Shown one piece after another: positions 2,360 to 16,779 of a stretch of 16,779 nt of DNA. Both the position numbers and the translations under genes were made by a program. The stretch spans positions 1 through 16,779 of the forward strand of contig JASHXM010000201.1 of assembly GCA_030043545.1 (NCBI GenBank). Reading direction: 5' to 3'. The notes beneath the pieces were generated by a model. The model ran no database searches. It had not been told where the DNA came from and saw nothing but the letters and a program-made list of their open reading frames with translations. Origin of the DNA: Thermoplasmata archaeon. GTDB lineage: Archaea > Thermoplasmatota > Thermoplasmata > Lutacidiplasmatales > UBA184. Numbering within the stretch: position 1 is the stretch's first letter; every line of letters starts with the position of its first letter.

Positions 2360-2411
2360 CGAATTAGACCCTCCCGGCAATTGGGTCACCCGATGCGGGG
2401 AGGCGGGGTCC

Positions 2412-2426
2412 CTATATGAGCTTTCC
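2412..2426 (-). promoter_or_regulatory. BRE/TATA promoter of the solute-binding protein gene
   Basis: On the minus strand GGAAAG (BRE-like) is followed directly by CTCATATAG (TATA-like) in otherwise GC-rich DNA. The usual 25-27 base spacing places the transcription start near 2389. That is either exactly at an upstream in-frame GTG, or 30 bases before the GTG at 2359, which has its own Shine-Dalgarno sequence. Confidence 0.6.
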
Positions 2427-2471
2427 AAAAATTTCGACCTCTAAAACACCGTTTCCACCGCCGACCGGCGG
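2427..2471 (-). terminator. Possible terminator downstream of tRNA-Glu
   Basis: On the minus strand, past the tRNA, a short hairpin (CCGCC/GGCGG, 2458-2471) is followed by TTTT and then TTTTT (2427-2431), the only T-tracts in the neighbourhood. Archaeal terminators are mainly T-tracts. The last tract abuts the BRE of the next gene, so it may instead be part of that promoter. Confidence 0.3.
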
Positions 2472-2517
2472 GCCTTCCCAAGGGGGGTGGGTCGTTCGCC
2501 GACGTTTAACCCCCGGA

Positions 2518-2621
2518 TGGTGCTCCCGGCGGGAGTTTCCCCGGCCGGGGGGACCGACCGGTTTTGAACCCGCGTCAGAGGCTCGAGAGGCCTCTATCCT
2601 TGACCACTAGACTACGGGAGC
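2518..2621 (-). tRNA. tRNA-Glu(CTC) with a T-loop intron (59/60) and encoded CCA
   Basis: On the minus strand the acceptor GCTCCCG (5' end 2621) pairs with CGGGAGC ending at 2522, followed by discriminator A (2521) and CCA (2518-2520). The D arm is GTCT/GGAT with two wobble pairs. The anticodon stem GAGGC/GCCTC encloses loop CTCTCGA, giving anticodon CTC (glutamate). The T stem GCGGG/CCCGC is complete only if 28 bases (2535-2562) are removed from the T loop. The spliced loop is then TTCAAAT, the form expected for archaeal tRNA-Glu, and the mature tRNA is 73 nt plus CCA. A scanner that does not model non-anticodon introns could miss it or call it a pseudogene. It lies between the UPF0145 gene and the solute-binding protein gene on the same strand. 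Confidence 0.85.
2535..2562 (-). other. Predicted 28-nt tRNA intron at position 59/60
   Basis: The intron folds as CCGGTCG/CGGCCGG (7 bp, one G-T wobble) around loop GTCCCCC. Exon bases T54 T55 C56 A57 face intron GGAA: three Watson-Crick pairs plus an A-G mismatch. This leaves 3-base bulges AA^A and AC^T, which place both cuts at 59/60. This is a slightly relaxed bulge-helix-bulge, the substrate of the archaeal tRNA splicing endonuclease. Splice positions are inferred from the fold. Confidence 0.75.
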
Positions 2622-2647
2622 GCCGCGGGGCGGTAGGGGGGGCCGCC

Positions 2648-2660
2648 TTTCAATCTTTCC
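2648..2660 (-). promoter_or_regulatory. Probable tRNA-Glu promoter
   Basis: The minus-strand sequence GGAAAGATTGAAA is the only AT-rich patch before the tRNA. It is centred about 30 bases upstream of the tRNA 5' end, a normal TATA distance. The match to a TATA consensus is weak. Confidence 0.4.
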
Positions 2661-2693
2661 CCGCGGACTGGGTCCGGGAGAGCGGAGCAGGGC

Positions 2694-3098
2694 TCAGCGG
2701 AGGCTCACCGCGGCGGGAGCGGTCGGGTCCGCCTCGACGACGACCGCGGTCCCGTATGCCATGATCTCGGTCATGATCTCGCTCATCTCGGAGGTGTCGA
2801 AGCCGACCGAAACGACCGCGTTCGCGCCCAGGCTGATCGCATGCTGGGTCAGCCGCGCGATCGCCTCGTGCCGGGACTGCTCGAGCAGCTGGGTGTACTC
2901 CGTGATCTCGCCCCCCGCTAGGCTGCGGAACCCGGCGACGATGTTCCGTCCCAAGCCGCGGGACCGGACGATCAGGCCGAACGTCACCCCGATCACCCGG
3001 GAGATCCGGTAGCCGGGCAGGAACGGGGTGGTGACGACCGGAATCTGGGTCGGGGGGGCGTACGCGGGGGTCCCGGGCGGTAGGGGGGTACCGGACAT
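2694..3098 (-). CDS. UPF0145 (YbjQ/DUF74) family protein
   Basis: The 134-residue product matches the UPF0145 pattern: TTPFLPGYRISRVIGVTFGLIVRSR near residues 23-47 (quoted in part as PGYRISRVIGVTFG), then AGGEITEYTQLLEQSRHEA, ALGAN-type segment SLGANAVVSVGFDTS, and the terminal AYGTAVVVEA. Family members are about 100-110 residues and are thought to form small oligomeric barrels. A heavy-metal-binding label exists in databases but no reaction is established. The extra length is a Pro-rich N-terminal tail (residues 1-20) and a short C-terminal tail. There is no signal peptide, so a cytoplasmic location is expected. ATG at 3098 is supported by a TATA-like box about 27 bases upstream, implying a leaderless transcript. 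It is transcribed divergently from the 3178 gene. Confidence 0.88.
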   Translation of the reverse strand: MSGTPLPPGTPAYAPPTQIPVVTTPFLPGYRISRVIGVTFGLIVRSRGLGRNIVAGFRSLAGGEITEYTQLLEQSRHEAIARLTQHAISLGANAVVSVGFDTSEMSEIMTEIMAYGTAVVVEADPTAPAAVSLR

Positions 3099-3120
3099 CG
3101 GCCCGGGGAGTCCGGCGCCG

Positions 3121-3129
3121 CCATAACAG
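3121..3129 (-). promoter_or_regulatory. TATA-like box of the UPF0145 gene
   Basis: CTGTTATGG on the minus strand is centred about 27 bases before ATG 3098. This spacing predicts transcription starting at the start codon. Confidence 0.45.
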
Positions 3130-3140
3130 CGCGGGTCCCG

Positions 3141-3158
3141 GGGAAGAGCCTATCTAAC
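3141..3158 (+). promoter_or_regulatory. BRE/TATA promoter of the 3178 gene
   Basis: GGGAAGAG followed by CCTATCTAAC lies 20-30 bases before GTG 3178. The spacing predicts a leaderless mRNA and decides the start codon. It sits back to back with the UPF0145 promoter in an 79-base divergent gap. Confidence 0.55.
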
Positions 3159-3177
3159 GGGGCGCGCTCTTCCGCCC

Positions 3178-3633
3178 GTGAACCCCCCGGTCAAGGCGCG
3201 CAGCGGCCACATCCTCCTGGAGCCGAAGCGGTCGTTCCACGATCTGGTCCGGGTCTATCCGGAGATCCACAAGCGGGTCGTGGAGATGAACCGACCTTTC
3301 GTCAAGGAGTCGGACCCCCTCTCTCCGGAGGCGCTCCTGGAGGAGAACCTGCGCGATCTCCGGCGGGACCGCAAACCGGTCGGCTACAACCGCCAGGATG
3401 CGTTCGGGCTCCGGCTGATCTTCCCGATCTCGGACGAGCGACGGGTCGAGTTCTACTTCGCGAAGCCGGCCCGGTGCCAGGAGGTCGTCCAGGTGACCGA
3501 GCAGGTCTCCCAGCTGCTGCGGCGACGGGGGGTCAAGCACTCGGTCGAGTACGACCGCCTCCCGCTCGGCCCGGTCCGCATCCCGCCCGGGGTGCCGATC
3601 CCCGGAGGCGGCACGCCGTTCGGCGCCTCGTAA
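3178..3633 (+). CDS. Conserved-looking hypothetical protein, 151 residues
   Basis: I do not recognise this family. The product is soluble, with no signal peptide or membrane segment. Residues 20-65 look helical and charged (HDLVRVYPEIHKRVVEMNRP, then a Leu/Glu-rich stretch). Residues 75-97 look like two beta strands (AFGLRLIFPI, RRVEFYFAK). A helix follows (VVQVTEQVSQLLRRRGVKHS), then a Pro/Gly-rich tail. This alternation suggests a small alpha/beta fold. There is a single cysteine and there are no catalytic signatures. GTG 3178 is chosen because the TATA-like box is about 26 bases upstream and no good alternative lies closer. Codon positions show the strong G/C third-base bias of the neighbours, which supports real coding. 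It converges with the giant helical-repeat gene, with only 10 bases between the stop codons. Confidence 0.75.
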   Translation: MNPPVKARSGHILLEPKRSFHDLVRVYPEIHKRVVEMNRPFVKESDPLSPEALLEENLRDLRRDRKPVGYNRQDAFGLRLIFPISDERRVEFYFAKPARCQEVVQVTEQVSQLLRRRGVKHSVEYDRLPLGPVRIPPGVPIPGGGTPFGAS

Positions 3634-3643
3634 CCCGGTCGGC

Positions 3644-6600
3644 CTACCCGCCCGGCGGCCGTCGGAACGGCCAGAACGGCGCGGAGGCGGCGGGCGACGG
3701 GGCGGCCGCTTCCGGGACGACGACCCCCTCCTTCTGGAGCAGGCGGAGCGCCTCCCGCGCCGTCTCGAGCGCCGCGGCGTAGTCGGCCGCCCGCTGGCGG
3801 AGCGACTCCTCGAGCAGCGCCCGGGCCTTCGTCGTGTCGATCTGCCGGGCCTCCGCCCGGGCGAGCGCCGCGTCGATCAGGTAGTGGAGGTTCGTCAGCT
3901 CCCGGTGGAGCGACTTGCGGAGGTTCAGCTCCTCCTCGACCTTGAGGATCATCATGCCGCCGTCGAGCAGCTGGCCGGCGGCGAGGAGCTGGTCCGCCTC
4001 CTTGAGCTGCTCCTTCACCGGCCCGACCGTGACGTGGAGCCCCTCCTCCGCGAACGTCACCTCGGAACCGATCTCCTTGCGACGCCGGGCGATCGGGGTG
4101 CGGACCGTCTCGGCGAGCGCCGTCCCGGCCTTCTCGAGCCGCTGGACCGCCTCGTCGACCTGCCCCGCGTCGAGCGCCGCCCGAGCCTCCCCGAACGTCT
4201 GCATCACCGGCGTCGTGTCGACCCCGAGCCGCTCGCCGACCCAGAGCCGGTCGCGGAGCGCGTTGACTCGGACGAGCACCCGCTCCTTCCGCTGCGCGCG
4301 GACGGCCGTCTGCTCGCTCCGGACCAGCCGCAGGGCTCCGGCGAGGTCTTTCGCCGACCGCAACGAGGCGAGGCGATGGGCGACGTCGTCCCGCCGCGTC
4401 ACCTCGGCCTGGGGGACCTCGCCGATCTCGGCCCGGTCGGCCTCGATCTCGCGCCACCGGCCGTCGACGGCCTCCTCCGCGAGCCGTCGGGCCGCGTCCT
4501 CCGCGCGCGCGACCGTTCCGCGCGCCTCGGCCCACTGGTGGGCCCGGACCGCGGCGTCGGCGGCGGCGATCAGCGCGTCGAGCGGCTCGATCTCGGCCGT
4601 GAGACCCTCCCCGCGGGCCGCCTCGGCCTGCCGACGGAGCTCTCCGAGCGGGGCCGCGAACGCCCGGTCGACGGCCCACCGGGCCATCTCGGTCGCCTCG
4701 CGCGCGCGGCGGACCGCCGGCGAGTAACGGCCGTTCTGGAGCTCGGATTTCGCCTCGGCGAGCTCCTTCGCCGAGTCGGTCGCCTCGACGCCGACCGCGC
4801 GGACCTCGTTCAACTGACGGTCGGCGACGTCGATCGCCTCGCGCGCGCGTCGGAGTCCGTCCTCGGCGGAGGAGACGACCTCGGCGATGAAGATCGCCCG
4901 TTCAAAGACGTCGACGTAGGCGCCGCGAGCGAACGACGACTTCGCGTTGCGCAGCGCGTTCTGGGCCTCGGTCGCGACGACCCCCTGCTGGGCGGCCGCC
5001 TGGATCGCGCCCTCCGCGGCGGCGAGGCATCCGTCGGCGAGTCGGCGCTGGAGATCGGCCCGCTCGAGCTCGCGCTCGCTGCGGGCCGCGAGTTGCAGCG
5101 ACTCGAGCGGCCGACCCTCGTCGAGCTCCATCCGCGCCTGGTGGAGAAGGTTCTCCGCGACCGACGTGTTCGCGCCGTCGCGCCGCAGTTGCGTGACCGT
5201 CGCCTGGAAGCCGGCGAGCGTCTTCGAGACGTGGCGGTACGTCGCCTGCCGGAGCTCCCGCTCGAGCGGTCCGGCGAGCTCGATCAGTTTCGGGTAGTCG
5301 CGCTCGCCGAGCACCGCGTCGAACCGTTCCGTCCGGCCCTTGAGGTCCCCCACGTCGGCGCGCAACAGCTCCGCCTCGGTGAACGCCTCGTGGACCCGCT
5401 TCGCGGCCCGCTCGGCGTGCTCGACGAACCCGCGGGTCGAGATGAGGGAGCTTCGGACCTCGTCGATCAGCGCCGCCGCCCCGGTCGGCGTCGGGAGCGC
5501 GACCCGGCGGCGCGCCTCCGCGAGCGGGGCGACGATCTTGTCGAGCGGTACCCCGGCCGAGCGAGCGGCGTCGAGGTCCCGTTCCAGCGAGCGGAGGTGC
5601 TCCTCGAGCACCGGGCGGAGGATCGCGCGGAGCTCGTCGTGGAGGAGCGTCGCCGCCGTTCGGGTCGCCTCGGGCGGAGCGCTCGCGCGCTCCGTGCGGA
5701 GCGCGCCGAGGCGGATCGCGAGCGGCTCGACGGTGGCACCGATCTGGCGGCCTTCCTCGACGAGGAGGCCGATGTCGCCCAGGATCCGCTCCGTCTCGAC
5801 CCGCGCGCCCTCGGTGGCGAGCCGCCGCTCGACGTCGTCGAGCAGCTTCTTCGCCCGGTCGAACCGAAGCGCGTTCAGCTCCTCGCGCGCCGCCTTGAGC
5901 GGCTCGTAGAACGGGGCGGGGTCGGCGCCCGCCGCGCGGACCTTGCCGAGCTCGTCCTGGAGCCGGGCGATCTGCTCGACGATCGACTGCGCCGCGGCGC
6001 GTCCGCGCCCGGCCGCCTCCTCGAGGCCGGCCGCCGCGCGGTACGCCTCCAGGTACCGTCCGTCGCGCGCCGCCGCCTGGGCCTCCTCGAGCACCGGCCG
6101 AAGCGAGGAGAGGTCGAGCCCGATCGGCTCGAGCTCGACGAGCGCGAGCTTCGCGTGGGAGATCGCGTCGTCCGACCGGACGAGCTGCTGCTGGCGGGCC
6201 CGGGTCCGGATCTCCTGCGACGCCCGGGACGCCTGGACGAAGTCGCCCATGTTGAAGATCTGCTGGACCTCGTCGATCTGCCGCTGGATCTCGTCGCTCG
6301 CCCCGCCCATCGACTCGAGCGTGCGGACCTCCGCCTCGAGCGCTTCGACCAGCGCGGAGGCGTGCGCCCCGAAGAGGGCCGAGAACTCCCGCTCCGCCCG
6401 TCGGAGGCTCTCGATCGACGCGACGACATCCTGCTTCACCCGAAGCGAGACATCGGCGTCGGCGAGCAGCCGCCGGACCGGCCCGACGAGCGCGGGGTCG
6501 GTGATCTCGGCGAACGACTTCTCCATCTCCTCGACGCGGCGCGCGACGTACGGCCCGGCCGCCGTCCGAAGCTCGACCTCGAACCGGGCGAGCCGCTCGG

Positions 6601-8134
6601 CGGCGGAACCCAGGTCGCCCGCGTCGAGCCGCTGCTTCGCCTCGGCGAGCCGCTGGTCCGTGGCGTCGTCGAGGAACCCGTGCTCCTTCGCGTACGCCCG
6701 GGTCCGGTCGAGCGTCGCCCACCGGTCGACGAAGTAGCGGACCGCCTCCTTGCCCGCGAGGCGGACCGTCTCCGCGAGCGCCTTCCGGGCCCCAACGACG
6801 TCCGCCCGGTCGAGGAACGACCGGACGCGCGCGATCGCCGGATCGAACGGCTCGGTCGGGAAACCGGCCGACTTGAACGTGGAGAGCATCTCGGAGAGCG
6901 TCTGGAGCTCGCCCCGGGCCGCCTCGAGGTCCTCGGTGAGCCCGCTGACCTTGTCGAGCGCCTCCTGGGCCGCCGCGAGCGCCTCCGAGTAGATCTTGAG
7001 CCGCAGCGCCTCGCGCGCCCGGTTCATCGCGGCGAACACTTCGCTCGGGTCGCGCCCCAACCGGCGCGCCCCGGCGATCCGCGGCCGGACCTCGTCGAGC
7101 AGCCCGGCGACGACGGTGACGATCGGCTCCTCCGCCGCCGACCGCGCGGAGGCGAGCAGCTGCGGGAGGTCGAGTGGCGGCGCCGCCGGCAGCTGCGCGA
7201 GCGACTCGTCGACCGCTGCCCGCGCGGCCTGGGCGTCGACCTCGAACTCCGCGACGGTGCCGAGCGAGGTCCGAAGTCCGTCCAGCACCTGCCGGCACCG
7301 TTCCCGGACGGCGTCGGCGACCTCCGGCGCTGCGGCGTCGATCGCCCCGACCGACTCCGGCCACCGGTCGACGGGCGCCGACGCGTCGGCGCGGAGCGCC
7401 GCCTCGAGCGGACCGGCCGGGGCGCCGAGCTCCTCGGCGGTCGCCCGGAGGCGTTCCGCGAGGCTACGGGCGGAGGCGTGACGGTCGCGCGCCTCGGGGA
7501 GTCCGTCGGCGAGCGCCCGCTGGACGTTCCCGACCGCGTCGGCGAGGCCGTCGTCGCCGGGGCCGGCCTGGACCGACGGGAGGAGCCGTTCGAACTCGGC
7601 GAGCCGGCTGCCCGACAGTCCGGCCCACTGCGCGACGGCGACGGCGCGACCCCGGACCCCTTCTAGATAGCCGGTGGTCGCGGCCTTGAGCGCGCCTTCC
7701 GCCGCCGCGAGCCGGCCCAGCGTGTCGGTCCACGCCGCGTCCGGCCCGACCCGTCCGAGCGCGTCGAGCTCGATCTTCACCTCCGGCGGGACGACGATCC
7801 CGAGCGAGGTGAGCCGGGCGAGCGAGTCGGCCGCCTTCTTCCGACGCTCCTCGAGGAGCGGCGGCACCGAGCGGGCGAGCTCGGCGAGCAGCGCCTGCGA
7901 CGCCGACTCGACCTGTTCCCAGTCGGAGCGACGGACGAGCTCCTGGACCTGCGCCATCCGCTCGGCGATGCCGGGAGCGATCCCGAGCGCGTCGAGCTGC
8001 GCGAGCCGCTCCTCCGCCTCCTTGAGCGCCACTTCGGCGGTCTGGCGCTTTTTCTTGAGCGCCTCCGCCTTTTCCTGGAGGATCCGGGTCAGCCGGGACG
8101 AAGGGAGCGGTCCGACGCCGCCCGGACCCCCCAC
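3644..8134 (-). CDS. Giant all-helical repeat protein (TPR-like or coiled coil), 1496 residues
   Basis: The product has no signal peptide or membrane segment and no Walker A or other nucleotide-binding signature that I can see, so a cytoplasmic structural or scaffold role is the safest inference. It opens with a charged coiled-coil-like helix (LQEKAEALKKKRQTAEVALK). It then consists of about 23 degenerate units of roughly 45-70 residues. Each has the pattern: helix, a short turn such as GLD, GVP or GVDTT, then a helix like PLxxARxALxxG, then a helix like yxEAlxxAreAL. Clear units include EALRLKIYSEALAAAQEAL, LEEAQAAARDGRYLEAYRAA and GEARAALDAGQVDEAVQRLE. The C-terminus is a Pro-rich tail ending PFWPFRRPPGG. 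GTG 8134 is preceded by GGGAGGAGG; an ATG further upstream is out of frame. It lies 124 bases downstream of aIF5A on the same strand with its own AT-rich promoter. No specific family was recognised. Confidence 0.88.
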   Translation of the reverse strand: MGGPGGVGPLPSSRLTRILQEKAEALKKKRQTAEVALKEAEERLAQLDALGIAPGIAERMAQVQELVRRSDWEQVESASQALLAELARSVPPLLEERRKKAADSLARLTSLGIVVPPEVKIELDALGRVGPDAAWTDTLGRLAAAEGALKAATTGYLEGVRGRAVAVAQWAGLSGSRLAEFERLLPSVQAGPGDDGLADAVGNVQRALADGLPEARDRHASARSLAERLRATAEELGAPAGPLEAALRADASAPVDRWPESVGAIDAAAPEVADAVRERCRQVLDGLRTSLGTVAEFEVDAQAARAAVDESLAQLPAAPPLDLPQLLASARSAAEEPIVTVVAGLLDEVRPRIAGARRLGRDPSEVFAAMNRAREALRLKIYSEALAAAQEALDKVSGLTEDLEAARGELQTLSEMLSTFKSAGFPTEPFDPAIARVRSFLDRADVVGARKALAETVRLAGKEAVRYFVDRWATLDRTRAYAKEHGFLDDATDQRLAEAKQRLDAGDLGSAAERLARFEVELRTAAGPYVARRVEEMEKSFAEITDPALVGPVRRLLADADVSLRVKQDVVASIESLRRAEREFSALFGAHASALVEALEAEVRTLESMGGASDEIQRQIDEVQQIFNMGDFVQASRASQEIRTRARQQQLVRSDDAISHAKLALVELEPIGLDLSSLRPVLEEAQAAARDGRYLEAYRAAAGLEEAAGRGRAAAQSIVEQIARLQDELGKVRAAGADPAPFYEPLKAAREELNALRFDRAKKLLDDVERRLATEGARVETERILGDIGLLVEEGRQIGATVEPLAIRLGALRTERASAPPEATRTAATLLHDELRAILRPVLEEHLRSLERDLDAARSAGVPLDKIVAPLAEARRRVALPTPTGAAALIDEVRSSLISTRGFVEHAERAAKRVHEAFTEAELLRADVGDLKGRTERFDAVLGERDYPKLIELAGPLERELRQATYRHVSKTLAGFQATVTQLRRDGANTSVAENLLHQARMELDEGRPLESLQLAARSERELERADLQRRLADGCLAAAEGAIQAAAQQGVVATEAQNALRNAKSSFARGAYVDVFERAIFIAEVVSSAEDGLRRAREAIDVADRQLNEVRAVGVEATDSAKELAEAKSELQNGRYSPAVRRAREATEMARWAVDRAFAAPLGELRRQAEAARGEGLTAEIEPLDALIAAADAAVRAHQWAEARGTVARAEDAARRLAEEAVDGRWREIEADRAEIGEVPQAEVTRRDDVAHRLASLRSAKDLAGALRLVRSEQTAVRAQRKERVLVRVNALRDRLWVGERLGVDTTPVMQTFGEARAALDAGQVDEAVQRLEKAGTALAETVRTPIARRRKEIGSEVTFAEEGLHVTVGPVKEQLKEADQLLAAGQLLDGGMMILKVEEELNLRKSLHRELTNLHYLIDAALARAEARQIDTTKARALLEESLRQRAADYAAALETAREALRLLQKEGVVVPEAAAPSPAASAPFWPFRRPPGG

Positions 8135-8140
8135 GCTCCT

Positions 8141-8148
8141 CCTCCCGT
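8141..8148 (-). promoter_or_regulatory. Ribosome binding site deciding GTG 8134
   Basis: The minus-strand run GGGAGGAGG ends three bases before the GTG. Its first GGAGG sits six bases from the start codon, an ordinary Shine-Dalgarno spacing, and no comparable site precedes later in-frame starts. Confidence 0.6.
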
Positions 8149-8210
8149 GCGCCGAACGGCCCGGCGCGGATCGCGACGGGCCCCCGGCCCGGGTTTCATG
8201 CCGCCCCTTC

Positions 8211-8220
8211 CTTATTAATG
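8211..8220 (-). promoter_or_regulatory. TATA-like box before the giant helical-repeat gene
   Basis: CATTAATAAG on the minus strand is the only AT-rich run in the 124-base gap after aIF5A. It is about 80 bases before GTG 8134, implying a leader of about 55 bases that ends in the GGGAGGAGG ribosome site. The box is nearly palindromic, so its direction is not certain. Confidence 0.5.
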
Positions 8221-8231
8221 AAACGCGCGGA

Positions 8232-8249
8232 CCGCCGTCTCACCGGCGG
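8232..8249 (-). terminator. Weak hairpin downstream of aIF5A
   Basis: CCGCCG and CGGCGG (6 bp, 6-base loop) begin 10 bases past the aIF5A stop codon on the minus strand, followed by a modestly T-rich GTTTCATTAAT. It could help end the aIF5A transcript. There is no strong T-tract, so this is a weak call. Confidence 0.3.
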
Positions 8250-8258
8250 GAAACGACG

Positions 8259-8645
8259 CTACGTGCGGGTGATCCGGCGCTTCCCCATCGCGTCGACGTA
8301 CTGGACCTCCGCGCCCGGGGCGACGGCGGCCCGCGTCTCCGCGTCGAGCGGGAGCGTGAACGTCTCGTACGATTCGAGGTCCATCAGCTGGACCTCGGCG
8401 TCGGTCATCGAGAGGACCTGCGCCTGCTTCTTCCCGATCATCGGCACCTGGACCTTGTGCTTCACCGGGAAGACGACGCTCCGCTTCGACCCGTCGAACA
8501 CTCCGACGGCGTCGATCCGGGCCTTCGCCTCTCCGTGCTTCCCCGGTTTCGACGTCTGGATGCTGAGGATCCGGCACGGCTCGTCGTCGATCAGCATGTA
8601 GCGCCCTTCCTTGAGTTCGCGAACTTCCTGCTGCGTCCACGCCAT
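8259..8645 (-). CDS. eif5A: Translation factor aIF5A (hypusine-containing)
   Basis: The 128-residue product is a full-length archaeal IF5A. The N-terminal SH3-like half carries the modification loop [13 protein letters not shown], with Lys36 as the expected deoxyhypusine/hypusine site. The C-terminal half (from about residue 70) is the OB-fold ([19 protein letters not shown]). The factor binds the ribosome near the peptidyl-transferase centre and relieves stalling, notably at polyproline; it is the archaeal/eukaryotic counterpart of EF-P. The loop has Pro where many archaea have Thr or Ser before GKHG. ATG 8645 has GGAGGG seven bases upstream (8652-8657) and a TATA-like box at 8681-8688. The gene is divergent from the synthetase-like fusion and upstream of the giant helical-repeat gene. 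No deoxyhypusine synthase is visible in the window. The neighbouring fusion contains many proline runs, so it is a plausible client of this factor. Confidence 0.97.
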
Positions 8646-8680
8646 CGCCGACCCTCCGACCGGTGAGGTAGGGGCGTTCG

Positions 8681-8688
8681 GCATAAGC
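8681..8688 (-). promoter_or_regulatory. TATA-like box of aIF5A
   Basis: GCTTATGC on the minus strand, about 39 bases before ATG 8645, predicts a leader of about 12-15 bases that contains the GGAGGG ribosome site. Confidence 0.45.
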
Positions 8689-8758
8689 GTTGCTCCGGTC
8701 GCGCGACGCGCGCGCCGCTCGGGCGTCGCACCCCGGCCGGTAGCCGGGCGGACCGAGG

Positions 8759-8766
8759 GTTTATTC
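8759..8766 (+). promoter_or_regulatory. TATA-like box of the synthetase-like fusion gene
   Basis: GTTTATTC is the only AT-rich run between the divergent starts at 8645 and 8812. It is about 50 bases before ATG 8812, implying a leader of about 23 bases without a convincing ribosome site. Confidence 0.45.
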
Positions 8767-8811
8767 GCGGCGCCGACGCTCCGACGGGTCGGGGGGAATC
8801 CGCCGGCCGCC

Positions 8812-11800
8812 ATGCCCGATCCGCCGCCGCGCCCGGACCTCCGCGGCGTCGAGCCGGAGGTGCGCCGGCTGTGGGCGTCGCGACGGCTCCCGCCGCGAAC
8901 GGGCGTCCTCGGTCCGGACGACGGGCCGCGCGTCCGGCTCCTCGAAGGGTGGTTCGAGGCCGACGACCCGGCCGAGCTGACCGTCCCGCGCGCCGTGGCG
9001 GCGGACATCGACGCGCGGCACCTGATGCTCACCGGCCGCGGCGCGGCCGGCACGCTCCGTTGGCATCGTTCGGCCGGGGGTCCCGACACCCCGGAGATCG
9101 CGCCGCTCCTCGACGCCCTCGGGGTCTGGGTCGGGGGCGCTGAGCGACCGTGGGACGCCACGGCGATCACCGCCGGCGTGCAGGCGATCACCGCCCGGCT
9201 CGCGGAGCGCGGGATCGTCGTCGCGCGCGACGGGCCGCTCCGGTTCTGTCTCGCCTGCCGAGCGCCTCGGACCCCCGAGCGGATCGTCTACCAGAAGGAG
9301 GTCGGCGACACGTTCCTCGTCCGGTTCCCGATCGCGGGGACCGAGCCGTCGATCGACGCCCTCGTCTGGGTCGACGCCCCGTGGCGCCTTCTCGGCGCGA
9401 GCGCCCTCCTCGTCCACCCCGATGTTCCGTACTCCGTCGCGGACTACCATCTTCGGGGCGCCACCGCTCGGATCCTCGCGTCCCACGGCTCCCTCGCCCG
9501 GCTTACCGCCTGGCTCCCGGACGCGACGGTCGAGGTGCGCGAGGAGAAGCTCGGGAAGGAGTGGGTGGGGCGGTCGTACGCGTACCCGCTCCGCCACGAG
9601 TTCCCGATCGGCGGGGCGCTCGACCCGCCCGCGGGGACGATCCAGGCGACGACCGAGGTCGGCGACACCGGCACCGGCATCGTGCCGCTCGTCCCCGGCC
9701 ACGGGCCGACGGATGCGGAGATCGCCGACCGGCTCGGGATCGCGGGCTGGCCGCTCCTCACGTCGCGCGGCGTCCTCGACCCGACGCTGATGCACAAGTA
9801 CTCCGGGCTCGACGTGGAGACGGCCAACGAGTTCGTCGCCCGGGACTTGACCGAGAGCGGCGCCGTGCTCGCTCGCCTCCGGGTGGTGCGCGGCGTGCCG
9901 TACTGCGCCATCTGCGGCCACCGGATCGTCTGGAGCCCCGGTCGGGCCTGGTGCCTCGAGCCGACCCGACTGCCGCCCGACCAACAGGAGCGGTACGCCC
10001 GGCTCCTGCCGCACGAGCGACCGATCGGACAGCTCGAGGTCTCCCGCTGGCCGGTCAGCGAGACGACGAGCTCGACCGACCCCGAGGCGGTCACGCTCCT
10101 CGAATGCGCGCGGTGCGAACGGCTCGACGCTCCCGACGGGGCGACCCAGTGCCCGTGCGGCGGGACCCGACGGCGCGTCGCGCGCCGCCTGTTACCGTCC
10201 GTCGACAGCTCGTTCGCCCAGTGGGCCCGGCAGGGGGCGATCCCGCCGTCCGATCGGATCCATCTGTACATCGCCGACCGCCGACGAGCGCCGACGCTGA
10301 TCCACCACCTCGCGGCCTGGAGCGGGGCGGAGGCGGGCACCGCCGAGGTCGGACTGACCGTTCTGCCGACGCTCAGTCGCGTCGCGATCGGGGAGGCGGT
10401 CGCGCGGTTCGGGGCGGACCCGGTCCGCGCCGCGATCGCGCGGACCGGCCCGTCGCACGGCTCGACCGACTCGTTCGCAGAGCGGTGTCGCCAGGAGTCG
10501 GAGCGGCTGGTGCGGCTGCTCGACCGGGCGCGCACGATCGCCGCGCAATGCCCTCCCGAACTGCTACGCGAGGGAGTCGCCCCCCCGGACCTGAACTCCC
10601 GGGAGTTCGAGATCGAGGACCGGGCGATCCTGGCGCGGTGGGCGCGCGCCCACCTCAAGGTCCTGGCCGCGTTCGACCGGTCGCAGCCGGGCACGTCGCT
10701 GCGGGTCCTCGACCGGTTCGTCGATCGGGACCTGCCCCGCTACCTCCAGCTGGTCCGACCTCGGCTCGCGCTCGCCGGCCAACCCCCGACGAAGCGCGGG
10801 GTCCTGCGGGCGCTCCGGTACCTCCTCCGCTCCGCCGCGACGGCGCTCTCCCCGGTCGCCCCGTTCTCGGCCGAGGCGATCCACCGGAGCCTGATCGCGG
10901 ACCCGAGGAGCGTCTTCGAGACGACGGACTTCGCCGTCGACCGGACGCTGCTCGACGAGGCGCTCGAGGCCGCCTGGGACCGATGGCAGGGGATCGTCGC
11001 CGCCGCCGACGAGCTGCGGGCCGCCCGGAACCTCCCGGCCGCTACGGTCGTCCCGGCCGCGGCGGTGGTGCTCGCCGACGAGGCGGCCGCCGCCCGACTG
11101 CGGGCCGACCGCGGAACGATCGAGCGGATCGCACGGATCGGGCGGCTTGAGGTGGCGAGTCCGGAGGTGCCTTGGGAGGGTCGGCACCGGCGGATGGTCC
11201 CCGTCGAGTCGGAGATCCAACGGGCGTACCCGGCGCTCGCCTCGCAGATCGTCCACCTGCTCAACCGGATGCCGCCCCGTCGGTCCGCCGAGCTCGGCGC
11301 CCGCGAGACGACGGTGTTCGTCCACGGGATCGCCCGTTCGATCACCCCCGAGATGCTCGCCGCGGTCGACACCCTGCCCGACGGCTTCGTCCCCGTGCCG
11401 TACCCCGGCGGAGAGCTGTACCTTCAACTCCCGGCGCCGGCGACAACGGCTACGACCCCCCCACCGCTGTCGCCCGACGCGTTCTGGCTCACTCGACGGG
11501 TCCGCGCTCGAGTCGGTACGGTCGGCCTCGACGCTCCCCGGCGCGTGGCGATCGTGACGGCGGTGGATCCGCTCGCCCAAGAGCTCCGCGAGAAGGCCGG
11601 GCCGATCGCGCAGTACCTCGGGCTTTCCGAGCTCCGGGTCACCGGGGCGACGCCGGGGGCCCGTCCCCACCATCGGATCGACGGTCGCACACGCACGGGG
11701 GCGCGGTGGAGCGTGGCGCTCTCCGGCCCCTCCGGCCCGGCGCGCCCGCGCAAGCAACGCGCCGCGCGCGCCGACGGACGCCGAGTTCCTCGCCCGACCG

Positions 11801-14112
11801 AGGCGGGCGCGTCGAGCGAGACCGACTTCGCCGACGCCGCCGTGATCGCGCGGGAGGAGTCGATCCGCGGGCTCGGGCACCAGTTCGACGAACTGATCGC
11901 CGCGCCGCTCCTCGGGCCGTCGAAGCTCACCCTCGCGTGGGAGGCGGGGTTCCACTCGCTCGACGATTTCCGGGACGCTCCGTTCGACCGGGTCGCGACG
12001 CTCACGGGGTTCGGTCGACCGGTGGCGGAAGCGCTCTGGAGCAAGATGGGCCGGCCAGTTCCGACGGCCCCGCCGCGCGCGCGCCCGACCGTCCGCCGCA
12101 CCGCGCCCGCACGGCCGACCGGATCCGTGGCGGCGACCGTTCTTGCCCCACCCGCCCCGTCGCTGGTGGCGCGAGAACGGCCGGCGCCGAGTCCGGAAGC
12201 GGCGTCGCCTCCCACCCCGGAGGAGCGGAAGGTCGAGACCCCGGAACTTCCGCCGACCGCGCTCGCCGTGGAGGACGAGCCAACTCCCGTCGCCGCGATC
12301 CCGCTCGGCCCTCCGGCCGAACTTCCTATCGACCCCGCGGAGTCCCCCGCGCCTCCCCCGGCCGAGCCCCTCGTCACTCCCCCACCGCGGCAGGAACCCG
12401 GGCCGGCGCCGCCGTCGGGGGAGACGCTCACCACGCCGGTCCCAGAGGAGCCCGCCGTCACCCCCGCGGATGCCCTGGCCATTCCGGACGAGCTCGGATC
12501 CGAGGCGGAAGCGGCGATCTCCGCCGAACCGGCGGCACCGCCGCCGTCCGAGGTCGCCGTCGAGGAGATCGGTTCCGCGGAACCCGCGATCGAAGCGCCC
12601 CCAGAGCCGACACTCCTGGAGGGCGTGCCCGCCACTTCCGAGGAGCCATCGCCCACGGGCGATCCGCTGGCGCCGACGGAGATCGTCCCCCCGACCGACG
12701 TCCCGCCGATTCCCGACGCGGCACCCGAGCCGTCACCGACTCCGCCGGAGCCGATCGAGCGGTCGGCGGAAACGGCGCCGCCGGCCGAGGTGAGAGCGGA
12801 GCTCCCGGTCGGGGCCCCAGAGCCCGCCATCCTGGACGAGAATCCCCCTCCGCCGGACGGACCCGGGCCCGGAGACGCGCCGCCATCTGGTCCCGCTTCC
12901 GAGTCGGCGCCCGCGGCTCCCACCGCGGAGTTGGCGAACGGCGAGCTCGCCCCCTCGGTGGCGCTCGAGGTCGGCGCCGAGGACGCGACGACCCCGTCGG
13001 TGACCCCGACCGTCGAACCTCCACCGCCCGTCCCCGAGGTCGCCCCGGTCCCCTCGCCTCCGATCGCCGCGGAGGCCCCGTCGGAGATCGGCCCTCCCTC
13101 GAGCGAACTCCCCCCGCCGACCGACCTTCCAGCGCCGACCGAACCGGCCGCCGCGGAGTCCGCGATGCCTACCCCCGCACCGGTCGCAGCGCTCGTGCCG
13201 GAGCCGACTCCCGACCCGACGGAGACGCCGGTGGGGGAACTTCGACCGACGATCACCCCGGTGCCGGAACATACGGAGGCCGCGATCGCGCAGGAGCTGC
13301 TCGGCCCCGCCGCTGCCGAGGTCCCCGCGTCGAGCGGAGAGGCGCCACCAGCTGAGCCCCCGGCGGCCGAACCGTCGCCCGAGCCGGTGGCTCCCGCGAC
13401 TCCGGAGCCCGCGCCGGCCGCCGTCCCGCCTGTGGCGGAAGCTCCCGTGATCGAGCCGCCGGCGGAGGCGGCGCCGGCTCCGCCTACGCCGGAGCTCGTC
13501 CCGAACGTGCCGGAGGTCGCGCCCCTCGCCGAGGCGCCAGCTCCCTCGGTTCCGTCGTCCCCGGCGCTCTCCGAGCCGGCCCCGGCCGTCGCGCCGGAGC
13601 CGATCCCGCCGGTCGAGATACCGCCGCCCACGGGGATCGAGGTCGACTACGCTCCGGCGCTGTTCTTCGCGCTCCAGCCGTTCCTGGACGCCACGGCGGC
13701 GGGCCATCGGGGGATCGCGATCGTCCGGGAGCTTCCCGAGCGGATCCGGGTCCACGTCGGGCCTCGACCGGTCGACGTCTACTGGCTGACCAACCTCGAT
13801 CGGCCCCGGACGCTCCGGCCGACCGACCTGCCCGCCCTCACGAGCCGGCTGGTCCGCGCGCTCGACGAGGAGGGGGTCACCGCCATCTTCCTCGAGGGGA
13901 TCGAGTACCTCGCGCGCGTGCACGGCATCGACCGGGCGTCGGAGTTCCTCTCCACGCTCGATCGCGCTGCGCGCGCGCGGCTCGCGCGCGTCTGGCTGCA
14001 CGTGACGCCCGGCCTCCTCCCGGAGGCGGAGCTCGATCGGCTGCTCGCGGCGATCCGACCCGAGGGCGAGCCGACCGAGTCGGCGCCCGGTCCGGCAGCC
14101 GGCCTGCCGTGA
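8812..14112 (+). CDS. IleRS-like pseudo-synthetase fused to HhH, Pro-rich linker and DUF835
   Basis: The 1766-residue product has four parts. Residues 1 to about 980 follow class I isoleucyl-tRNA synthetase: N-terminal EPEVRRLW, editing-domain echoes DAPWRL (188-193) and [12 protein letters not shown] (287-298), zinc-type cysteines C365/C368 and C432/C435/C447/C449, the KMSKS-flanking RFGADPVR (532-539), and an anticodon-domain-like helical region with [15 protein letters not shown]. The HIGH site is replaced (about 53-60, PAELTVPR), and KMSKS is replaced by LPTLSRV (518-524). Residues 1034-1078 form a helix-hairpin-helix region ([26 protein letters not shown]). About 1085-1605 is a Pro/Ala/Glu linker. 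About 1612-1755 is DUF835 (WLTN at 1658, FLEGIEYL at 1693). Aminoacylation is unlikely; an RNA-binding or regulatory role is inference. ATG 8812 is chosen because an upstream in-frame start would lie over aIF5A. The frame is continuous, so it is not a decayed pseudogene. Confidence 0.88.
12064..13620 (+). repeat. Low-complexity coding region for the Pro/Ala/Glu-rich linker
   Basis: This segment of the fusion gene encodes about 520 residues dominated by Pro, Ala, Glu, Ser, Thr and Val in loose, irregular motifs (PAPPTPE, EPPPEP, APAPS-like). There is no fixed period and no predicted fold. The nucleotide sequence is correspondingly rich in ccg, gcg and gag codons but is not an exact tandem repeat. 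It is expected to be a disordered spacer between the HhH region and DUF835. Confidence 0.8.
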
Positions 14113-14120
14113 ACGCATAG

Positions 14121-14131
14121 TTCTTTATCTT
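14121..14131 (+). promoter_or_regulatory. TATA-like box of the 14150 gene
   Basis: TTCTTTATCTT is centred about 25-27 bases before the tandem GTG codons at 14150 and 14153. This predicts a leaderless mRNA beginning at one of them, and that the gene is not simply read through from the fusion gene 37 bases upstream. Confidence 0.55.
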
Positions 14132-14149
14132 GAGCCGACTGCCGAGACG

Positions 14150-14920
14150 GTGGTGACCGACCGCCGGAGCCGGATCCGCCCCGCGCGGGTCGCGGTCGCG
14201 CTCACGCTCGTCGCGACGTTCGCCGCGCTCGCCTTCGGCCCGCTCGAGGCGACCTCCTCCGCCGTCGCCCGCACCGTAGCGCCCGAGCCGCTCCTCTACC
14301 ACACGTTCGCGGCGCACGCCACCTGGCAGGGGAACAACCTCACCTCGGCGAGCGACTCGACGCACGCGTTCCGGATCACCACGAACCAGCAGATCCTGGT
14401 GAAGTTCGGCTACTCCGAGCCGACCGGCGGCCCGACGATCACGACGGCCCGGATCCAGGCGATCTACTTCGGCTCGGTGATCTCGACGAACCAGGTGTCG
14501 GCGAGCTCGCACGCGTTCGCCGGCGGCGCGACCGGCAACGCCACGATGAACTGGACGCTCGGGACGTTCACGTACCTCCTCGCCGGGACGTACCTCCTCA
14601 CGGCGAGCCTCGTCTCCAGCACCGGATCGACCGTCTGGAGCGAAAGCTTCTACATCAACGCGGTCGCGCCGTACTACGTCGCCTCCGGGCTGATCGTCTT
14701 CCTGCTGATCTTGGGCGCCGTCGAGCTCTGGTCGATCGCCACCGTCGCCCGCGGGCCGAAGGTGCGCGGGGGCCGGACGCCGGCGTCCCAGCCCCCCGAG
14801 CCGTGGGACTCCGGTACGCCGCCGGCGGGCGCCGCGCCGACCGCTCCCGCGGACGAGTCCGAGCCGGCGCCCCCGACGCCGGCGGCCGATCCGCCGCCTC
14901 CTCCGGAGGAGTCGTCGTGA
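14150..14920 (+). CDS. Surface protein with signal peptide, external beta-type domain and one C-terminal TM
   Basis: The family is not recognised. The 256-residue product has a positive N-terminus and hydrophobic segment at about 13-30 (VAVALTLVATFAALAFG). An external domain of about 140 residues follows, rich in Thr, Ser, Ala and Gly with alternating hydrophobic residues typical of beta strands. A membrane helix lies at about 178-199 (ASGLIVFLLILGAVELW). A cytoplasmic tail of about 55 residues is rich in Pro, Ala and Glu. Sequons at N63, N130 and N134 would allow archaeal N-glycosylation. Start choice is between tandem GTG codons at 14150 and 14153. Its stop overlaps the start of the next gene (GTGA), so the two are translationally coupled and their products may interact. 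There is no cysteine in the external domain, unlike the other envelope proteins here. Confidence 0.8.
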   Translation: MVTDRRSRIRPARVAVALTLVATFAALAFGPLEATSSAVARTVAPEPLLYHTFAAHATWQGNNLTSASDSTHAFRITTNQQILVKFGYSEPTGGPTITTARIQAIYFGSVISTNQVSASSHAFAGGATGNATMNWTLGTFTYLLAGTYLLTASLVSSTGSTVWSESFYINAVAPYYVASGLIVFLLILGAVELWSIATVARGPKVRGGRTPASQPPEPWDSGTPPAGAAPTAPADESEPAPPTPAADPPPPPEESS

Positions 14921-15105
14921 GCGGCGCGAGCAGCGCGGCGGCGTCGGGGGCGGTCTTCGGGATCGTGGTGATCCTGTTGATGCAGCAGTTCGCCCTGATC
15001 TCGCTCAGCACCCTCACCTGGGGGATCATCTACGTCGCGATCGGGCTGATCGCCGGCGCGGTCCTCGGCGGGTTGGTCGGCCGGCGGTTGACTCACCGCC
15101 AGTAA
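14917..15105 (+). CDS. Two-TM membrane miniprotein, 62 residues
   Basis: The family is not recognised. It starts at GTG 14917, which overlaps the upstream stop codon as GTGA. The ribosome site GGAGGAG (14905-14911) lies five bases before the GTG, inside the upstream reading frame, so translational coupling is likely. The product has two membrane helices: about 11-31 (GAVFGIVVILLMQQFALIS) and about 35-56 (WGIIYVAIGLIAGAVLGGL). The Gly-rich second helix resembles packing helices of small membrane subunits. A short basic tail RRLTHRQ follows, which favours both ends in the cytoplasm. It probably partners the 14150 protein, but this is inferred only from the overlap. The in-frame stretch upstream of 14917 lies inside the previous gene and is not used. 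Confidence 0.75.
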   Translation: MSGASSAAASGAVFGIVVILLMQQFALISLSTLTWGIIYVAIGLIAGAVLGGLVGRRLTHRQ

Positions 15106-15136
15106 GCTCCATCTCGCGTGCGGCCGGGCGGCCTCT

Positions 15137-15661
15137 CTACGAGAAGTCGATCTCGGAGCTCTCGAGCGGGTCTTTGCGGGGGCGCGAGCTCCGCTCCCGC
15201 CGGGACGGACCGAGCCGGATCCCCGCGATGACGAGGACGACGCCGATCCCGACAAAGACGATCCCGGCTACCCCGCCGAACAGCGGCTCGGCGTACTCGA
15301 AGTCGACCTCGACCGGACGGGTCGAGGAGACGAACGCGTAGTACTCGCCGACCTTGCCGGTCCAGTGGAGCGTCCCGGACTTGCCGGTCCCGCCGGTGAC
15401 GTAGTTCGACTTCGACAGGTTGGTGCAGAGCGGGTGCGGGCCGCAGTCGTACAGGGAGACGGTGATGCTGAACGACGCGCTCCAGTCGACGGTGTACGGG
15501 ATCGGCGAGTCGAGGACCGCCGCCGGCGCGGAGAACTCGAGGACATCGGTCGTCCGGTTCACGTTCTGGTTGCCGGTCGACATCGTCTGGACCGGCGCAT
15601 ACCACAGGCCGACGCCGACGAGCGCGGCGATGATCCCGATCACCAGCATCCGGCGGTCCAC
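15137..15661 (-). CDS. Membrane protein with two TM helices and an external domain, 174 residues
   Basis: The family is not recognised. TM1 is at about 5-22 (MLVIGIIAALVGVGLWY). An external domain of about 105 residues has a beta-like pattern (ASFSITVSLYDC, SGTLHWTGKVGEYYAFVSST), a close cysteine pair C73/C79, and sequons at N35 and N81. TM2 is at about 128-150 (GGVAGIVFVGIGVVLVIAG). A basic then acidic cytoplasmic tail ends EIDFS. The alternation resembles small anchored beta-sandwich proteins of archaeal envelopes, but no named domain is evident. The start is GTG 15661; an ATG four codons in is an alternative. It converges with the miniprotein gene (31-base gap) and diverges from the 15812 gene through a 150-base promoter region. 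Confidence 0.8.
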   Translation of the reverse strand: MDRRMLVIGIIAALVGVGLWYAPVQTMSTGNQNVNRTTDVLEFSAPAAVLDSPIPYTVDWSASFSITVSLYDCGPHPLCTNLSKSNYVTGGTGKSGTLHWTGKVGEYYAFVSSTRPVEVDFEYAEPLFGGVAGIVFVGIGVVLVIAGIRLGPSRRERSSRPRKDPLESSEIDFS

Positions 15662-15698
15662 CGCTCGTCCCTCGGGTGCGCGGCGAGCCGCGCCGCCC

Positions 15699-15708
15699 CC
15701 TTATAGCC
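15699..15708 (-). promoter_or_regulatory. TATA-like box of the 15661 gene
   Basis: GGCTATAAGG on the minus strand lies about 40 bases before GTG 15661, implying a leader of about 15 bases. It is one of two AT-rich islands in the divergent 150-base gap. Confidence 0.5.
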
Positions 15709-15744
15709 GGCGGGGGCGGGCGCTCGGCCGCGGGAAAAGCGCCA

Positions 15745-15754
15745 CCGATTAAAC
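15745..15754 (+). promoter_or_regulatory. TATA-like box of the 15812 gene
   Basis: CGATTAAAC is about 60 bases before GTG 15812. It implies a leader of about 35 bases, long enough to carry the GGGAGGG ribosome site at 15797-15803, eight bases before the GTG. Confidence 0.5.
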
Positions 15755-15811
15755 CCTCCGCTCGCTGGCGCGCCGACCGACCTTCGGTCGAGGGCAGGGA
15801 GGGTTCGAGGA

Positions 15812-16779
15812 GTGTCCGGACTCGGCCCAGGGGCTCGCGCCGCCGCCGGCGGGGGGTCCCTCTCGTGGTCGCTCGACGCCCGGCGGCGGCAACGTCAGCT
15901 CCACTACGTCGACCTCGCCCGGGTGGTGAGCGCGCTGCTGCTGATCGGCTCTGGCGTGCTGATGGTCGGGTTCGCCGAAGGAACGTGGTGGGAGGCGGAC
16001 CGGATCTCGACGGCGCTCACGAGCCCCGTGCAGCTGCAGGACGTCGGGGTCGACTACAACGTCGGCGGCTCGATCACCTGCTGGGTGTACGGTTCGTGGC
16101 CCCCGCGGGCGACCCCGTGCCTCAACGTGAGCGATCACGTGGAGGGATCGCTCGGCGAGGCGTACTCCGTCGTCGACGTGCTGCTCCACCTCTTCGGCGC
16201 CTTCGGGATCGTCGCCGGGGCCCTGGTCCTCCTCGGCATCCTCGGACGGTCGTTCGGCCGGCTCCAGTTCACCCTCGCGATCCTCCTCGCGCTCGCGACC
16301 GCGGTAGGGGGATTCGCGCTCGCGGGCGGCACGGCGCTGGCCGGTTCGGGCAGTCAGGCCGCCACGTACTGCCTCTACTACTCGGCGAACACGACGAACT
16401 GTCCCGGCTTCTTCGGGAGCGTGACGGCCGGGGTGATGCAAGGCGGCTGCCTTTCCTGCGCGAACACGATGTACTGGGGGCCTGGCCTCGCCTGGTACTT
16501 GACCGTCGGAGCGGGCGGCCTCGCCCTCCTCGCTTGGTTCCTCCTCTACCGCCGGCGGGAGGGTCCGTTCACCCAGGCAGAACACCTCGCGTGGGCCGCG
16601 CACAACATCCCGTATGAGCTCCGAGGAGGCGGGCCCTCCGGTCCCGCGGCGCCCGGCGGGAAGAGCGCGATCCCGTACTCCGAGGCGAGCCGGGCCCGCT
16701 GGACCTGTCCCGTCTGCCAGGCGACCAATTCGCCGTGGGCGCCGCGATGCGGGCGATGCCGACGACCGCGCCCCGCGTC
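15812..16779 (+). CDS. Four-TM membrane protein with C-terminal zinc ribbon, partial at the right edge
   Basis: From GTG 15812 the frame is open for 322 residues to the edge. The family is not recognised. Membrane helices lie at about 36-56, 118-145, 153-175 and 226-246. Two external loops result: 57-117 with a cysteine pair (C90, C103), and 176-225 with two pairs (C187/C197, C213/C216). The cytoplasmic tail carries a zinc-ribbon half (CPVC at 299-302, CGRC at 313-316) spaced as CxxC-x10-CxxC, the form common in archaeal membrane proteins with an N- or C-terminal ribbon. Helix placement with positive residues before TM1 and after TM4 supports both ends inside. GTG 15812 is chosen for the GGGAGGG eight bases upstream and the fit of the N-terminus. 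The tail continues beyond the window, so its final domain is unknown. Confidence 0.8.
   Translation, partial: MSGLGPGARAAAGGGSLSWSLDARRRQRQLHYVDLARVVSALLLIGSGVLMVGFAEGTWWEADRISTALTSPVQLQDVGVDYNVGGSITCWVYGSWPPRATPCLNVSDHVEGSLGEAYSVVDVLLHLFGAFGIVAGALVLLGILGRSFGRLQFTLAILLALATAVGGFALAGGTALAGSGSQAATYCLYYSANTTNCPGFFGSVTAGVMQGGCLSCANTMYWGPGLAWYLTVGAGGLALLAWFLLYRRREGPFTQAEHLAWAAHNIPYELRGGGPSGPAAPGGKSAIPYSEASRARWTCPVCQATNSPWAPRCGRCRRPRPA

Follow-up and report, generated by a model that had tools for sequence, protein, structure and literature searches.

A displaced isoleucyl-tRNA synthetase may survive as a non-catalytic DUF835 fusion protein in Thermoplasmata

Synthetase-like domains that do not charge tRNA have been repurposed in GCN2, HisZ and other regulators, which are class II proteins of eukaryotic or bacterial origin. 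Archaeal class I counterparts that have been described include LeuRS-I of Sulfolobaceae and LeuRS2 of Halobacteria, paralogues of unknown role that stand beside a working enzyme, bind tRNA and carry out little or no aminoacylation; LeuRS-I binds tRNA-Leu and forms leucyl-adenylate without aminoacylation (available part of PMC9437257). The same portion of that source tabulates HisZ under L-His synthesis and gives 2 duplicates derived from isoleucyl-tRNA synthetase (IleRS), IleRS2 and SbzA, which serve in mupirocin resistance and in Ile transfer to altemicidin, respectively. DUF835, also known as inactivated KaiC (iKaiC), is attached to REC and PAS domains in archaeal response regulators (available part of PMC5847659). 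DUF835 is named in one paper of the open-licence PMC library; among the papers listed by searches of that library, none announces an IleRS-DUF835 fusion or a Thermoplasmata IleRS paralogue in its title or at the start of its abstract, and a term search of the accessible part of a paper on archaeal fusions (PMC11237513) returned no mention of isoleuc-, synthetase or DUF835. Here we describe a protein that is both, encoded in a 16,779-nucleotide stretch of DNA from a Thermoplasmata archaeon of the order Lutacidiplasmatales (contig JASHXM010000201.1 of assembly GCA_030043545.1, positions 1 to 16,779; the whole stretch is called the window), and refer to it as pseudo-IleRS.

Pseudo-IleRS resembles LeuRS-I in that a working cognate synthetase is encoded in the same genome. 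As far as the accessible part of their description goes, LeuRS-I and LeuRS2 differ from it in that pseudo-IleRS belongs to the IleRS lineage, has no motif left, is fused to DUF835 and, as read here, is the displaced native enzyme. With IleRS2 and SbzA it shares being an IleRS duplicate with, presumably, another role, and its DUF835 belongs to the same Pfam family as the iKaiC of response regulators, which sits there on REC and PAS domains and here on a synthetase (available part of PMC5847659). The closest likeness is to the IleRS proteins of Thermoplasmata, including Methanomassiliicoccales, that carry a helix-hairpin-helix (HhH) and DUF835: these have the same domain order and a body of recognisably common descent, but they keep HIGH, KMSKS, editing and RYWG motifs, whereas the window protein has none of these and carries a long Pro-rich linker. 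With a little more confidence than even odds would give, we read pseudo-IleRS as the displaced native IleRS of the archaeal lineage, turned into a non-catalytic sensor or adaptor that would bind tRNA. The gene and its parts are as follows:

8812..14112, + strand: pseudo-IleRS gene, 1766 residues; presumably dead IleRS body, HhH, Pro-rich linker and DUF835
8812..9234, + strand: residues 1-141, once the first half of the catalytic Rossmann domain, with PAELTVPR in place of HIGH
9235..10011, + strand: residues 142-400, editing-type domain CP1, which contains cysteine quartet 1 and evolves slowest
10012..10581, + strand: residues 401-590, cysteine quartet 2 and remnant second Rossmann half, KMSKS lost
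10582..11061, + strand: residues 591-750, helical anticodon-binding domain (Pfam Anticodon_1, E 1.4e-11)
11062..11766, + strand: residues 751-985, C-terminal domain of IleRS, type A (see below) by profile scores
11824..12066, + strand: residues 1005-1085, HhH; HHH_5 below cut-off, 5 helices in the model
12067..13626, + strand: residues 1086-1605, Pro/Ala/Glu-rich linker, variable among relatives
13633..14052, + strand: DUF835, predicted KaiC/RecA-like fold without P-loop

From its ATG the frame at 8812-14112 (+) runs without a stop for 1766 residues, and the continuous IleRS-like frame of 1766 codons described in an earlier note, made from this DNA alone, is borne out by translation, Pfam, NCBIfam, PDB search and AlphaFold2 fold. 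Pfam places Anticodon_1 at residues 603-746 and DUF835 (PF05763) at residues 1627-1744 (E 2.9e-15, 56.7 bits, above the gathering cut-off of 33.1). HHH_5 at residues 1025-1074 falls below its cut-off in the window protein (E 3.2e-4) and lies above it in 6 of 6 degenerate IleRS copies (relics) from other families. No tRNA-synt_1 match was found in the window protein by Pfam, and of the 4 matches to PF00133 in the genome that contains the window, none is the pseudo-IleRS locus. The best NCBIfam model is ileS TIGR00392 (E 6.8e-29), which matches best across the CP1 region (residues 126-383); the score of 100.6 bits does not reach the equivalog cut-off of 621.4. The PDB sequence search concurs, matching the window protein to 1ile. 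In the AlphaFold2 model the body has an IleRS fold (predicted local distance difference test score, pLDDT, 85.7) with Rossmann, CP1, anticodon and C-terminal domains present; CP1 superposes onto an IleRS editing domain with a root-mean-square deviation (rmsd) of 1.7, and residues 1-141 are modelled with a strand (40-48), a helix (54-73) and a second strand (77-84). For DUF835 a KaiC-like fold without Walker A is predicted. The window protein is thus an IleRS by descent and fold, and not by enzyme criteria. Both cysteine quartets (C146, C149, C365 and C368; C432, C435, C447 and C449) are presumably zinc sites, as in IleRS structures. The linker, put at 520 Pro-rich residues in the earlier note, is indeed Pro-rich over residues 1086-1605 of the window protein (29% Pro, 19% Ala, 13% Glu, zero aromatic residues), but its length is not fixed, ranging from 90 to 613 residues with a median of 421 in 113 of the 120 family proteins (the other 7 gave no DUF835 match).

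Those family counts rest on the 120 proteins listed, the window's own included, from a protein search with 142 matches. The similarity of the window body to IleRS is not due to chance, since 71 aligned relatives are 46-65% identical to it; chance similarity was rejected on protein relatives, their alignment and structural superposition. A regular-expression scan of the window protein found no HxG[HTSQ], [MLFQ][SH]KS, SRxR[YFW], D[MCT]HG, T[TS][TS]PW or Walker A. The aligned motif table puts PAELTVPR at HIGH and VDAPWRL at TTTPWTL, as the earlier note had them, and GTGIVP at GTGIVH. Across the family (the window's protein and 119 relatives) none of the 120 has H[ILMV]G[HT], the KMSKS pattern or the SRxRYWG pattern, and a Walker-A-like string occurs in a single protein, at residue 1101 of 1655, within the linker by position. 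Other conserved letters occupy the HIGH, editing-threonine and KMSKS positions in the family alignment. An intact HIGH or KMSKS elsewhere in the protein, which by the earlier note would have spoken against a dead enzyme, was not found by sequence pattern, a check that did not extend to structural superposition of residues. To judge from its sequence, pseudo-IleRS has probably lost catalytic activity.

The IleRS-HhH-DUF835 layout is a common, motif-intact IleRS of the class Thermoplasmata and is not new in itself, so the four-part architecture that the earlier note took to be without precedent has one. Families, genera, genomes and loci carry labels internal to the analysis (f, g, G and L), the window's family being f1 and its genus g1. 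The succession of IleRS body, anticodon domain, C-terminal domain, HhH and DUF835 occurs with intact motifs in other Thermoplasmata families (L043, L044, L045 and further loci); we call this working enzyme type A, and some type A rows lack one or more of these domains. When one type A enzyme served as database query, DUF835 was found in 119 of the 120 matches listed and all 3 of the HIGH, KMSKS and RYWG patterns in 118 of them; matches with a named source are called isoleucine--tRNA ligase or isoleucyl-tRNA synthetase and come from Thermoplasmata, Methanomassiliicoccales and a few broader labels. The possibility that the fusion was assembled after the enzyme had died was rejected, as motif-intact fused enzymes exist. 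DUF835 is not required for an intact enzyme, because type A enzymes without it exist (8 examined, in f8, f29 and f23, the last being an unfused type A). In 19 aligned intact type A rows HIGH reads HxGT instead of HxGH (for example L044, L045 and L204-L210), with HxGQ in L206.

A second, unfused kind of IleRS, type B, is found in the window's genome on another contig (G000:C219) with HLGH, TTTPWTLPAN and KMSKS; it is the second canonical ileS with intact motifs that the earlier note had proposed to look for. Type B rows form one clade with full support in the Shimodaira-Hasegawa-like approximate likelihood ratio test in both trees, and types A and B share the same best PDB IleRS matches. In a type B search the source-named rows were all Thermoplasmata among the best 120 of 8000 scored. 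A survey scoring 3 candidates per genome gave a canonical-strength ileS match, by best E-value, in 43 of 45 f1 genomes; of the 2 exceptions, G053 and G027, the latter has no pseudo-IleRS. The type B match in an f6 genome (G121:C95, L151) holds one in-frame TAG; a sequencing error, disruption of the gene and stop-codon read-through could each account for it.

Type B and a degenerate copy of type A occur together in genomes of f1, f2, f3, f6, f9, f13 and f18; in the f9 genome G162 ileS is present as a fragment only. Wherever type B was found among the examined genomes, type A was not found or else persists as a pseudo-enzyme, a fate that seems new. Ten genomes from f15, f19, f27 and f31 showed no relic, with an intact ileS in 9 and none in the G299 assembly. 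In the motif table type A is represented by 19 rows, type B by 22 and the relics by 30, two of which (L114 and P0113) appear to be one protein. All 19 type A and all 22 type B rows (41/41 working enzymes) retain KMSKS, as against 0/30 relics. The HxG of HIGH is kept by all 19 type A and 22 type B rows and by 5 of the 30 relics (in f13, f18 and f2), and TTTPW by the same working rows and 2 relics (f13). Decay is graded: f13 keeps the RYWG block and TTTPW, f2 keeps HIGH and RYWG, and at the far end HIGH and KMSKS are both lost in f3, f6, f9 and f1.

The relics descend from type A by the evidence of profile scores, which led us to reject descent from a type B enzyme. Body profiles score higher against type A than against type B in 30/30 relic rows (186.6 versus 107.9 bits for the window), the scores for the C-terminal domain of the window are 36.6 bits (type A) and −1.7 bits (type B), and in 18 f1 rows this domain matches type A only. 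Trees split the relics from type B (support 100) and do not fix their position beside type A (support for type A plus relics without f1 is 58); long relic branches are weakly placed, and many rows are of odd composition. In a DUF835 tree the relics of f2, f3, f6, f9, f13 and f18 group with type A (86/69, which is weak, and with 2 other DUF835 rows included), and f1 lies on a long branch. A further tree row labelled as an "other" DUF835, L146 (G012), clusters within the pseudo-IleRS family, and the DUF835 profile test was run without it. DUF835 is retained in 27 of 28 relic loci. Most likely DUF835 was inherited with the enzyme and not, as the earlier note had proposed, attached to a dead synthetase as an output domain; for f1, the descent of the body and the situation in the order-mates f2 and f3 would point to vertical inheritance.

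The replacement of type A by type B appears to have happened more than once. An RpoB tree of 38 genomes (2 of 40 requested having no match), with type labels taken from the ileS surveys and the motif table, places f13, f18 and f24 next to f4 and f17, in which only type A was seen (95/97), and apart from the other type B families. Parsimony on this tree needs 3 switches, and the type B genomes form a single clade in 0% of 200 bootstrap RpoB trees. At least 2 independent replacements are favoured on these grounds, and not proven.

What has been kept in pseudo-IleRS differs from what is kept in a working enzyme. In none of the 18 f1 rows does either catalytic part exceed 15 bits against IleRS profiles (residues 1-141 of the window give −0.5 and 1.4 bits against type A and type B, respectively, that is, no score), and against type A the same 18 rows score 61-107 bits for CP1, 21-68 for the anticodon domain and 28-73 for the C-terminal domain. 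Cysteine quartet 1 is complete in 30/30 relic rows, and so is quartet 2, save for one Ser in one row. Within f1, conservation is highest in CP1 (0.655), with DUF835 at 0.576 and the catalytic halves at 0.494 and 0.497. In working type A the second catalytic half is the most conserved part (0.716 versus 0.620 for CP1), and in working type B it is the first half, narrowly (0.789 versus 0.770). In the 8 closest pairs of relatives the ratio of non-synonymous to synonymous substitution rates (dN/dS) lies between 0.13 and 0.27 for the body, and CP1 alone gives 0.07-0.15; these pairs do not include the window, and those with L029 and L124 repeat one genome. DUF835 ratios, drawn from truncated loci and a poor alignment, were set aside. 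The f1 pseudo-IleRS is under purifying selection, and the earlier note's picture of an IleRS-derived body without catalytic motifs, held by selection, agrees with both the motif scan and these ratios.

Presence across the order was scored as a match below E 1e-20 in 106 genomes, by the author's reading; many assemblies are incomplete, which makes absences soft. Pseudo-IleRS was found in 60/78 genomes of g1, 5/6 of g13, 6/6 of g14 and 0/13 of g9-g12. More distant relics occur in the order-mates f2 (2/2 genomes) and f3 (1/1). Database names within the window's family include one valyl-tRNA synthetase and several class I tRNA ligases.

In the scheme we favour, an unfused type B IleRS would have taken over charging, and the copy derived from type A would have lost its catalytic and editing motifs with its frame staying open and selected. 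The CP1, anticodon, C-terminal and HhH parts may still bind tRNA, either tRNA-Ile or some set of tRNAs, and no longer charge it. The DUF835, KaiC-like and lacking a P-loop, could then relay the bound or unbound state through the flexible linker to a protein partner, and pseudo-IleRS would in this way serve the translation machinery as a sensor or adaptor that depends on tRNA. Most simply, the non-catalytic role would have been present already in the active type A enzyme, since a second role of the active enzyme would account for the retention of dead copies across several lineages. More tentatively, and at less than even chances, the native Thermoplasmata IleRS may have an ancestral non-catalytic function, vested in a tRNA-binding body and DUF835, that alone was retained after at least 2 independent replacements; this would be a tRNA-state sensor of GCN2-like logic in which a class I synthetase is joined to a dead KaiC. 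The relics would then offer a natural experiment in which aminoacylation was removed from a housekeeping enzyme and the rest was kept, with erosion running by degrees from the almost intact f13 copies to the window's unrecognisable one, and whether archaeal synthetases have a moonlighting job would become a directly testable question. DUF835 would gain a biochemical handle, and a synthetase label on a DUF835-bearing protein can denote a dead copy.

The neighbourhood of the gene bears on its possible tie to translation. The features beside it are:

8259..8645, − strand: eIF5A, divergent neighbour (Pfam IF5A-like_N, E 1.9e-15)
8646..8811, no strand: divergent intergenic region of 166 bp with candidate promoter elements
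3644..8134, − strand: presumed coiled-coil or helical protein, 1496 residues, no Pfam match
3178-3633, + strand: conserved 151-residue protein, no Pfam match

The intergenic region contains two possible promoter elements, a TATA-like TTTATT (8760-8765) facing the pseudo-IleRS gene and, facing eIF5A, CATAAG (8682-8687); similar strings recur in most relatives (16 stretches, by eye). Pseudo-IleRS is divergent to eIF5A in 21/21 f1 loci (L009 and L119 among these are probably one genome), within 400 bp in 20 and at about 1.9 kb in L109. The coiled-coil gene lies on the other side in 20 of the 21, the exception being L110, whose genome has the gene on another contig. At E 1e-10 or better this gene was found in 88 of the 106 genomes of the order. 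Nine g1 genomes without pseudo-IleRS keep eIF5A with neither pseudo-IleRS nor the coiled-coil gene beside it, and no coiled-coil match at E 1e-10 was found anywhere in these 9; there the 151-residue protein adjoins eIF5A. Of the 78 g1 genomes, 56 were scored as having both genes and 14 as having neither, with each gene standing alone in 4 (Fisher p 7e-9), counts that ignore relatedness, could reflect few events and depend on presence scored by the author's reading. Among the 25 g1 genomes at least 90% complete with at most 5% contamination the match is perfect, with both genes in 19 and neither in 6. Genera g9-g12 keep the coiled-coil gene without pseudo-IleRS. No eIF5A or coiled-coil match was found beside the f2 and f3 relics; by eye, the f2 relic lies near EF-1A-like and S10-like genes, and the f3 relic near a tRNA-guanine-transglycosylase-like gene (L041, L042).

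The pairing with eIF5A in f1 supplies a translation context for the displaced-enzyme reading, and several observations weigh against that reading. Pseudo-IleRS is dispensable, as it was not found in 18 of 78 g1 genomes or in any of the 13 from g9-g12. The eIF5A pairing was not seen in 6 loci examined from f2, f3, f4, f5 and f7, and the approximately unbiased test (p 0.074) leaves the independence of the replacements unproven. As to descent, the anticodon domain scores slightly better against type B in 2 of 18 f1 rows, and the DUF835 of the window scores 43.5 bits against the IleRS-fused kind and 58.6 against other DUF835s, the others being better in 10 of 13 f1 rows. One f6 relic (G018) has lost DUF835, and the case for a sensor role of this domain comes down to its occurrence in response regulators (available part of PMC5847659) and its fold. 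Finally, G053 has pseudo-IleRS and no intact ileS was found in it, with 3 of its 8 candidates scored.

The rival that survives best makes pseudo-IleRS a structural cofactor, a dead tRNA-binding subunit that would anchor one of its possible partners (type B IleRS, eIF5A, the coiled-coil protein) within a translation complex. A long, variable Pro-rich linker together with HhH would suit such a scaffold, as would the divergent arrangement with eIF5A and the co-retention with the 1496-residue gene within the genus. We nevertheless regard it as unlikely, given that an intact type B enzyme occurs with no relic found in 9 of the 10 genomes sampled from f15, f19, f27 and f31, and that the coiled-coil gene persists in g9-g12 where pseudo-IleRS was not found.

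Because CP1 is the most conserved part and superposes on the IleRS editing domain at the rmsd given above, the protein could instead be a trans-editing factor or another hydrolase, with a rewired CP1 pocket that acts on aminoacyl-tRNA or a small molecule. D188, H297 and D301 are invariant in 18/18 f1 rows, D188 being new. However, the protein lacks the editing threonines and the GTGIVH histidine, and relics of other families have other residues at the places of D188, H297 and D301, which makes this activity improbable in our estimate.

Rated just below a hydrolase is a binder of nucleic acid other than tRNA (mRNA, rRNA or DNA), working through HhH and the old tRNA surface. HhH domains are present, with 3 matched stretches in one f6 relic, but HhH already belongs to the working type A IleRS and is therefore no sign of a new ligand. 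We give very little credence to continued amino acid activation at a non-canonical site: Rossmann-like strands and helices persist in the model, yet HIGH, KMSKS and RYWG patterns are missing from all 120 family members, both catalytic halves are less conserved than CP1, and a motif-complete IleRS is encoded in the same genome. Least credible of all is a decaying pseudogene, for although the gene was not found in some lineages, no relic match listed contains an internal stop (a gene broken by stops was rejected on this ground), dN/dS is well below 1, many residues are invariant across 72 aligned proteins and the place beside eIF5A is conserved.

Some further observations concern the accessory domains. 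The f6 relics L199 and L211 carry several HhH stretches, and the G018 copy ends in HhH-like repeats. A second, divergent DUF835 match occurs in frames of about 300-440 residues in several genomes of the family, such as L145 (G005:C193) and L147 (G001:C6); G001 and G002 carry such a frame without pseudo-IleRS. The number of DUF835 matches per genome reaches 31 in G013 and 37 in G015 (f2), compared with 1-2 in each of 13 g1 genomes.

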